From: Alphaproteobacteria bacterium
GTDB lineage: Bacteria > Pseudomonadota > Alphaproteobacteria > UBA9219 > RGZA01
Assembly (NCBI GenBank): GCA_010031785.1
Contig: RGZA01000005.1
Coordinates: forward strand, 1 to 39,539
Direction: 5' to 3'
DNA: 39,539 bases
The notes beneath the pieces were generated by a model. That model had not been told where the DNA came from, did no database searches, and worked only from the letters and a program-made list of their open reading frames with translations. Positions 13,353-15,351 of this stretch are shown piece by piece. Numbering within the stretch: the first letter of the stretch is position 1; the number at the start of each line of letters is the position of its first letter. A program made the position numbers and the translations under genes.

Positions 13353-13774
13353 AGCCGCACCTTTTCCCAGAAATTGTTGAAAATCACTTTGTAATCAGCG
13401 AATGACATAGTTTTGCCAGAAATAAGTAAAAACAATGATAAGTTTGAACTAAAATTTCGTAAAAGATCCTTCAAAATCAGATAGTTAAGGCTTTGCTAAC
13501 CAGCTAAGTCGTTGAGATATATAAGGAGCGGTTTTTATCCCCAAAAGTTTTTTCAAAAAAAGTAAAACTAATTTCTATTCAGCATACAAAAGCAGGCTTT
13601 GAATGGCGGCGCGGCGCTGTTTTGCATGAATGATGCGTTTTGGCCTTTAAATACGCCTTTGAATATAGGAGGAATCCGCGCTCTTGTTTTTAAAGAACGA
13701 GCTTGCTACAAAGCACACACTATATATGTGATGAGCATATGCGGCGAAGTGTAGCGTTTTTGCTGATCTATTGT

Positions 13775-14017
13775 GGACAGGTGGCCGCCCGTTTGCCGAA
13801 AGGCAAACATAAAGTGCACCACGAGGCCTCCAATGGGGTTTCGTTTATGAAATGTGGACAGGTGGCCGCCCGTTTGCCGAAAGGCAAACATAAAGTGCAC
13901 CACGAGGCCTCCAATGGGGTTTCGTTTATGAAATGGGGACAGGTGGCCGCCCGTTTGCCGAAAGGCAAACATAAAGTGCACCACGAGGCCTCCAATGGGG
14001 TTTCGTTTATGAAATGG
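13775..14017 (+). repeat. Three tandem 81-bp repeats, each starting with the first 13 nt of the adjacent tRNA-Ser
   Basis: GGACAGGTGGCCG starts at 13775, 13856, 13937 and (as the tRNA) 14018, exact period 81. Units differ only at the last base (T, G, G). Confidence 0.97.
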
Positions 14018-14109
14018 GGACAGGTGGCCGAGTGGCCGAAGGCGGCGGTTTGCTAAACCGTTATACGAGTAACATTGTATCGGAGGTTCGAATCCTCTCC
14101 TGTCCGCCA
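14018..14109 (+). tRNA. tRNA-Ser (anticodon GCT), CCA encoded
   Basis: Acceptor GGACAGG/CCTGTCC, anticodon stem GCGGT/ACCGT with loop TTGCTAA, long variable arm ATAC..GTAT, T-arm GGAGGTTCGAATCCTCT, GCCA 3' end. Confidence 0.97.
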
Positions 14110-14110
14110 C

Positions 14111-14148
14111 TAATAAAAAAGGCCCTTTTTAAAGGGCCTTTTTTATTA
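14111..14148. terminator. Strong bidirectional rho-independent terminator after tRNA-Ser
   Basis: TAATAAAAAAGGCCCTTT-TT-AAAGGGCCTTTTTTATTA, 18-bp perfect arms. Confidence 0.92.
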
Positions 14149-14163
14149 GATGATTAGCAGAGC

Positions 14164-14272: not shown

Positions 14273-14881
14273 ATGGAATTTGTGCAGTTAAAATTCAAAG
14301 TACTAAGATTAGTATTTTCGCTTATTACCAGCGCTTTGCTGGCATGGATAATCACAAAAACTACTGAAGTAAATTTTATTACTGTATTTTTTCTCTTAGT
14401 AATAGGTCTCCCACTGGCAATTTGGCTTGAGCGTTTAAAAAATACGCCAGCTCATTTGCTAAGCGCGTGTCTAATGAACAAAGACTTGGTCAATGAAACA
14501 AAAAATAAATTAAGAAGGCTTCCGTTAAAAACAGCAGAAGAATGGAATGATTTTCAATCTTTCTATGATAGTGACCAAGCTATTGCTGAGCATACAGCTT
14601 CTGATTCAAAAGCATTTGCAGTATCAACGCGTTACAGTATTCAGACTCTAAGAGATACTGGTAATTTTTTAGACTTCATGAATTGCGGATTGATATCTTC
14701 GCGAGCAATTGACCAAATTTATTGGGAAATCGCCAATAAAGAGGAGGGGGAATTTGTCAGATCGAAAGGCTATGAAAGCTGGGCGGAATATATGGTAGAT
14801 CATGGTATTGGGGAAGATGTGCGTGAAAGTTATAAAGAAGCAGCCCTTAAAGAAAAACAGAAACGTGAAGGAAAAAAGTGA
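14273..14881 (+). CDS. Hypothetical membrane-anchored protein (two N-terminal hydrophobic segments)
   Basis: 202 aa; hydrophobic VLRLVFSLITSALLAWII and FITVFFLLVIGLPLAIWL, then charged cytoplasmic-type domain. Family not recognised. Confidence 0.7.
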   Translation: MEFVQLKFKVLRLVFSLITSALLAWIITKTTEVNFITVFFLLVIGLPLAIWLERLKNTPAHLLSACLMNKDLVNETKNKLRRLPLKTAEEWNDFQSFYDSDQAIAEHTASDSKAFAVSTRYSIQTLRDTGNFLDFMNCGLISSRAIDQIYWEIANKEEGEFVRSKGYESWAEYMVDHGIGEDVRESYKEAALKEKQKREGKK

Positions 14882-15351
14882 TGTACGAAACATCCTTTTG
14901 GGAAGGAACTGGAGCTGCTTTAATAAGCGTATTCTTAGGGGTGGCGTTTACTTATTTCCTTTCTACTCGTTCTGAAAAGCGCAGATTAAGCTCATACAAA
15001 TCAAGTCTTCGTGCAGAGATTGACCTCTGCAAAATAATGTCAGAAGAATATAATAAGCAAGACGCTCCTCAAGCCCCATCATGGCGGATGCCTACACATG
15101 CATGGACAAATTCATATCCTGAATTATTAAGCTTAGGGGTTATGACGCAAGAGCAAGTTACGGCACTTAATGAGATATACGTTGAAATCAACGCTCTTAA
15201 TCTTGGTCTGGATCAAATAAATGATGCCAGATTAATAGCGCGAGGGGCAGGAAATATTATGCAAGAGGAGGCTGATAGAAATAAACTAAAGGCCTCTAAA
15301 ATAATATCTAGGCATCAAAAAGCTTTAGACGCTTTGTCCTCAATAAAATAG
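14881..15351 (+). CDS. Hypothetical membrane-anchored protein (one N-terminal hydrophobic segment)
   Basis: ~156 aa; GTGAALISVFLGVAFTYFLS then helical, charged domain. ATG overlaps the upstream stop (TGATG). Confidence 0.7.
   Translation: MYETSFWEGTGAALISVFLGVAFTYFLSTRSEKRRLSSYKSSLRAEIDLCKIMSEEYNKQDAPQAPSWRMPTHAWTNSYPELLSLGVMTQEQVTALNEIYVEINALNLGLDQINDARLIARGAGNIMQEEADRNKLKASKIISRHQKALDALSSIK

Follow-up and report, generated by a model that had tools for sequence, protein, structure and literature searches.

Tandem modules carrying a copied tRNA end beside many tRNA genes of poorly known alphaproteobacteria: candidate cis-acting elements on tRNA precursors

Short modules that lie beside many tRNA genes in poorly known alphaproteobacteria, each holding a duplicate of one end of the adjoining tRNA, look like an undescribed kind of tRNA-linked element; in the open-access literature, we found no description of such modules. 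One case is in the window, the whole 39,539-nt stretch of DNA analyzed here, which belongs to a 2.18-Mb draft genome. There, three 81-bp units at 13775-14017 precede tRNA-Ser(GCT). The initial annotation of this DNA had reported three contiguous units with a period of 81 and, as a fourth start, the tRNA itself, and this is borne out by the sequence, by ARAGORN and by Tandem Repeats Finder, which reports 13775-14030 as 3.2 copies of period 81 (99% matches; score 505). The three starts are 13775, 13856, and 13937, and the fourth GGACAGGTGGCCG begins tRNA-Ser(GCT) proper. The 13 shared nucleotides had been read as the acceptor 5' strand and the start of the D stem; indeed, 7 nt make up the acceptor 5' strand, and UG and the initial bases of the D stem follow. 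Also as annotated, the units are identical except for their last base, which is T in unit 1 and G in units 2 and 3. One reading was wrong: 'GTTTGCCGAAAGGC vs GTGGCCGAAGGC', taken for continuing similarity to the tRNA, is a separate and perfect hairpin that is conserved in the family. The features of the locus are:

13684..13712, + strand: promoter-like TTGTTT-N17-TACAAA, upstream of the array (located by script)
13775..13855, + strand: unit 1, consisting of tRNA-end copy GGACAGGTGGCCG (13775-13787), CCC, hairpin, linker, anti-D-arm-like segment, and leader-like tail
13791-13808, + strand: hairpin of unit 1, GTTTGCC-GAAA-GGCAAAC (sequence and hairpin fold)
13819-13828, + strand: anti-D-arm-like CCACGAGGCC of unit 1 (assigned by inspection)
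13856..13936, + strand: unit 2, parts as in unit 1, with hairpin at 13872-13889 and anti-D-arm-like segment at 13900-13909 (sequence, Tandem Repeats Finder, SL2 model)
13937..14017, + strand: unit 3, parts as in unit 1, with hairpin at 13953-13970 and anti-D-arm-like segment at 13981-13990 (sequence, Tandem Repeats Finder, SL2 model)
14018..14109, + strand: tRNA-Ser(GCT) gene, source of the copied end (ARAGORN, anticodon GCT; Rfam RF00005, 56.8 bits)
14110..14149, + strand: terminator-like inverted repeat AAAAAAGGCCCTTTTTAAAGGGCCTTTTTT, directly 3' of the tRNA (read from sequence)

The SL2 model matches unit 1 at 13786-13814, and the tail of unit 3 forms the immediate leader of the tRNA. A comparable inverted repeat lies 3' of the same tRNA in a congener (L003). 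Farther 3' in the window, two ORFs (14273-14881 and 14878-15351; 202 and 157 aa) have no Pfam match. The gene flanking the array encodes TrcR, a cell-cycle regulator of alphaproteobacteria, in agreement with the class of the genome.

The array lies between the tRNA and a promoter-like site, and in two congeners without an array (L003 and L004), tRNA-Ser(GCT) is preceded by the same two hexamers at the same 17-nt spacing. Because this putative promoter also precedes the same tRNA where no array intervenes, the window array is probably part of the transcribed leader, a possibility raised in the initial annotation. By eye, similar hexamers are also seen before the arrays of L010, L071, and L079.

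The array, for which recent expansion or homogenization had been suggested, is not a recent peculiarity of one tRNA-Ser: its relatives are found at many isoacceptors and on both sides of the tRNA, with inheritance that spans genera and families. The window genome itself holds four arrays, at Ser-GCT (3 units), fMet (2), Ser-CGA (1), and, on the 3' side, Gly-GCC (1 and a partial second). Among relatives, modules are found at about 10 isoacceptors (Ser-GCT/GGA/CGA, fMet, Lys, Gly, Thr, Val, Gln, and Ala), with units of 64-149 bp across the family. Two genomes of the same order have units before the same tRNA (L007, 2 x 86 nt; L010, 1 x 81 nt), and a pattern scan brought in three more records from alphaproteobacteria, with units before Ser-GCT in PRO1 and Micavibrio UBA7657 and before Ser-GGA in OFTM66. 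With a hairpin-only model, independent of the tRNA, we found tandem units 5' of fMet, Lys, Gly-CCC, Thr-TGT, and Ser-GGA and, on the opposite strand, units downstream of Lys, Ala-CGC, Val, and Gln tRNA genes.

To compare tRNA flanks with their own tRNAs, we scanned every flank in three genomes (120 tRNAs) at a score of >=26, with reversed flanks as controls. The tRNA's own 5' end was copied in 11 of 120 upstream flanks and its own 3' end in 3 of 120 downstream flanks, compared to none on either side in the controls, and thus the tRNA-end copy of the window is not a product of chance. Of the 11 upstream cases, two belong to the Ala/Ile tRNA pair in an rRNA operon, and the one at Ser-TGA differs in kind, being a longer copy. 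The latter (L319, G015:C10) is a degenerate self-copy of 5'-half length before tRNA-Ser(TGA), representing another kind of tRNA duplication.

Beyond the order of the window genome, modules are present in PRO1, UBA7657, possibly OFTM66, and, from another order, G135. The last is the single case that pattern GTGGCCGAGTGCCCG gave in another order, in a genome listed with 10% contamination and the sole one sampled from its order; outside the class this one Ser-specific pattern, a narrow test, gave no case. When the Ser-type pattern was run over public genomes, 3 of 120 loci among the matches listed were real, most being chance matches in coding regions; eight viral contigs matched it, none near a tRNA-Ser. 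Over 395 genomes of the class, the SL1+SL2 model yielded one new real genome and one coding-region match, and the hairpin model no tRNA-linked case outside the order. Hairpin-model matches in another alphaproteobacterium, G119 (L245-L260), were rejected as family members, as they belong to a dispersed repeat in an unrelated genome, where a REP-like element ending TGATGCCCGCGGGCGCTGCCCGCAAAAAATTAAA is present in at least 14 copies. In G183, tandem GCCTGCCGGCGCAGGCCGGCAAACAAAAACCAGCC repeats (L241) lie ~800 nt from a tRNA-Gly, not at it. The M17 peptidase adjoining the L079 array is no nearer to this order than to the class, and its family is paralogous.

The units share one anatomy at many tRNAs and on both sides. 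A typical unit contains a copied tRNA end, CCCG, a 6-7-bp hairpin, an A-rich linker, often an antisense of the arm in which the copy breaks off, and leader or trailer sequence. Modules on the 5' side copy the tRNA 5' end up to the D-loop, and those on the 3' side copy the 3' end from the T-loop. The 5'-side order is tRNA nucleotide 1 to about G18, CCCG or a variant, a hairpin with a GNA or GNNA loop, the A-rich linker, often an anti-D-arm, and a tail resembling the leader. In the sense direction, the 3'-side order is trailer, antisense to the 5' strand of the T-stem, linker, hairpin, CGGG or a variant, and the tRNA from T-loop to CCA. At Thr-TGT and Val-TAC, the copy extends into the anticodon arm and the antisense shifts along with it. 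Several units, including those of the window, contain CCACGAGGC(C), which by its sequence could pair with GGCCGAGUGG via tandem G.A mismatches. Hairpins are alike at different tRNAs of one genus (the window and the Lys array of G002). At Gly-CCC of G015 (L217), the stem GCGAGC-GAAG-GCGAGC contains two mismatched G/A positions, which together would make a tandem sheared G.A pair. The initial annotation was right that the array is real, but its scope was too narrow, and it missed the covarying hairpin and the cognate antisense of many arrays.

Judged by synteny, the arrays are orthologous and have been passed down across genera and families. Both in the window (family f1) and in G025 (family f2), gatC-gatA-gatB precedes the Ser-GCT array, and further syntenic arrays are found at fMet in G000/G003/G004, at Ser-GGA in G015/G024, and at Ser-GCT in PRO1/UBA7657. 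Units per locus in three congeners are 3/0/0 at Ser-GCT, the copy-number comparison that the initial annotation had proposed, 2/0/1 at fMet, 1/6/0 at Ser-CGA, and 1/2/1 at Gly-GCC. As some congeners have no copies, the module is dispensable. In the hairpin alignment, 48 of 48 cells are paired and 14 are changed on both sides (shuffles, 76% paired). Such covariation across loci is also expected from independent hairpins, and only two orthologous comparisons bear on selection: compensated stems of congeners at fMet (ATTCTGC/GCAGAAT vs GGTTTGC/GCAAACT) and at Gly (ATGCGGC/GCCGCAT vs GTGCCGC/GCGGCAC). Antisense identity is 92-100%, compared with 58-61% for the adjacent tail or trailer at Ser-CGA and Gly and 80% for the fMet tail, in few comparisons. 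The antisense is cognate-specific in 11 of 20 5'-side arrays, where no tRNA of other amino acid specificity, among 99-108 compared, pairs equally well. The window array is among the weaker ones, with no significant specificity (13 of 99 other tRNAs pair as well), and likewise specificity is not significant for PRO1, UBA7657, Lys, and Gly-CCC.

That the copies compete for the 3' acceptor strand had been suggested for the window and is supported, in principle, by predicted folds, in which the copied end is favored in most arrays. The swapped acceptor is predicted at a probability of 0.96-1.00 for Gly (G000), Lys (G002), Ala (G021), Gln (G011), and Ser-CGA (G001 and G004); for Gly-CCC and Lys of G015, the native fold is predicted. 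P(native) is below 0.2 for 75% of 20 one-unit array tRNAs and for 41% of 100 array-free tRNAs folded with their natural 85-nt leaders (Fisher p=0.007, with loci that are not independent). When the tail is shuffled and copy and hairpin are kept, mean P(native) is still 0.23, and much of the disturbance of the fold is therefore due to the copy alone. These are equilibrium predictions and offer moderate evidence at most for an exchange of ends. An effect of odd or even copy number in the window fold was set aside as an equilibrium curiosity, as it is absent from other arrays.

Our best explanation, which we hold tentatively, is that the window array belongs to a family of modules that act in cis on tRNA precursors. 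The module would be transcribed together with its tRNA, and the precursor could adopt two folds. In the native fold, the acceptor stem would be closed by the genuine end. In the other, end-swapped fold, the tRNA body would pair with the copied end, which closes the acceptor stem, while the antisense, matching the genuine arm better than the truncated copy, would hold the genuine end. Processing by RNase P or at the 3' end might then be delayed or misdirected, making the module a brake or tuner of the maturation of its own tRNA. Whether all this amounts to a new class of tRNA-specific cis-regulatory RNA is more doubtful; in such a class, tandem end-swap modules, placed on one side or the other of many tRNA genes in several lineages of alphaproteobacteria, would let a duplicated end replace the genuine one to control the maturation of individual tRNAs, and copy number would be an adjustable setting. 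tRNA genes are usually seen as plain units that are processed constitutively. Duplication of a tRNA's own end, often with a matched antisense arm, on both sides of many isoacceptors would instead point to maturation control tRNA by tRNA.

The main rival places the cause in the DNA, and we consider it a serious possibility, if somewhat doubtful. A nascent strand would enter the tRNA gene from outside, stall at the D- or T-arm, switch strand to give the antisense, and return to give a second copy of end and flank. Each event leaves the tRNA intact and would be tolerated, and slippage and unequal exchange would then alter copy number and homogenize the units. Such template switching accounts for the outside-in symmetry at both tRNA ends, for copies that stop at the D- or T-loop with the antisense spanning the breakpoint, for the joint shift of the two at Thr-TGT and Val-TAC, and for near-identical units in 0-6 copies; occurrence on both sides also fits a process at the DNA level. 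However, it leaves unexplained the non-tRNA CCCG-hairpin-CAAA piece common to the units, the retention of hairpin and antisense while the adjacent tail diverges between congeners, and the persistence across families. A plain duplication hotspot, as first offered for the window, accounts for neither hairpin nor antisense. Were template switching correct, the arrays would record recurrent, replication-driven remodeling of tRNA genes. At loci that vary from 0 to 6 units among congeners, both ideas can be tested directly.

Variable stems with GNA or GNNA loops stand between constant CCCG and CAAA flanks, and hairpins are similar at different tRNAs of one genus. Both features bring to mind a palindromic mobile element of very small size (REP/MITE-like), inserted into the D- or T-loops of tRNAs with a long target duplication, only tRNA-restoring insertions surviving. 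In support, a duplicate of the leader adjoins the copied end at fMet of G002 (29 nt including the tRNA part), relative to the empty site in G001. We nonetheless think this improbable, since the arrays look vertically inherited, the antisense goes unexplained, and hairpin-model matches in the order that are not tRNA-linked are mostly chance-level, in coding regions, or other repeats. tRNA ends are standard attB sites, and the units could be att-site duplicates that phages or genomic islands left behind when they integrated site-specifically. A gene for a serine recombinase (Resolvase, Recombinase, and zinc ribbon; L365:6284-7717) near the Ser-GGA array of G024, with a 77% identical ORF at the syntenic place in G015 (L363:7057-8646), agrees with this. 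Yet the units are 64-149 bp long, carry no cargo, and sit at many tRNAs and at both ends; no cargo with an integrase lies between the duplicated tRNA ends in the window, where the 81-bp units are without genes. Relics of att sites would moreover share no covarying hairpin or antisense, and we regard this origin as very unlikely. The arrays were read from draft assemblies, with repeats from short reads, and the G030 array lies at a contig end. An assembly artefact is still barely credible, as units recur, with differing sequences, at orthologous loci of independent assemblies, including the two-contig genome G010.

Several known systems resemble the modules in part. In the window and eight array loci, Rfam gave no family matching the module. 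T-box riboswitches and other tRNA-related leaders are likewise leader RNAs able to interact with tRNA sequence, but in the present modules the regulated gene would be the tRNA itself, and no T-box model matched in the window or the eight loci. tRNA 3' external transcribed spacers of the leuZ type act as sRNA sponges. Like the modules, they are pre-tRNA spacers with a possible base-pairing function; here, in contrast, the units are tandem and complementary in cis to the tRNA. REP/BIME and other small palindromic repeats share short hairpins and constant flanks. The modules differ in that they go with tRNA ends, one of which they duplicate, and REP-like dispersal was seen only in G119; in the window genome, scores drop from 28.1 bits for the three array copies to 21.9 and 20.2 bits for the next matches, which have no tRNA link or array. 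The nearest known system is rtT of tyrT, whose repeat contains 19 bp of the tRNA 3' end. Like the modules, it consists of tandem repeats that lie beside a tRNA gene and carry one tRNA end; the repeats are within the tRNA transcript, as those of the window probably are, and have the same gross form as the 3'-side arrays. The initial annotation had named it as an analogue, which is fair for sister arrays with downstream repeats and the tRNA 3' end (e.g., Gly-GCC, L267) but not for the window array, which lies upstream with the 5' end. Rfam's RtT family had no match in the window at the gathering threshold and none in eight array loci at E<=0.5. The E. coli tyrT repeats give rise to rtT RNA (Bosl and Kersten, 1991, as cited in PMC2965389 and PMC4986893), which those two articles, where they cite it, describe as being freed from the tyrT transcript and possibly connected to the stringent response. 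Compared with rtT, the present units are shorter, also occur on the 5' side, are found at about 10 isoacceptors, and carry a conserved hairpin and often a cognate antisense.
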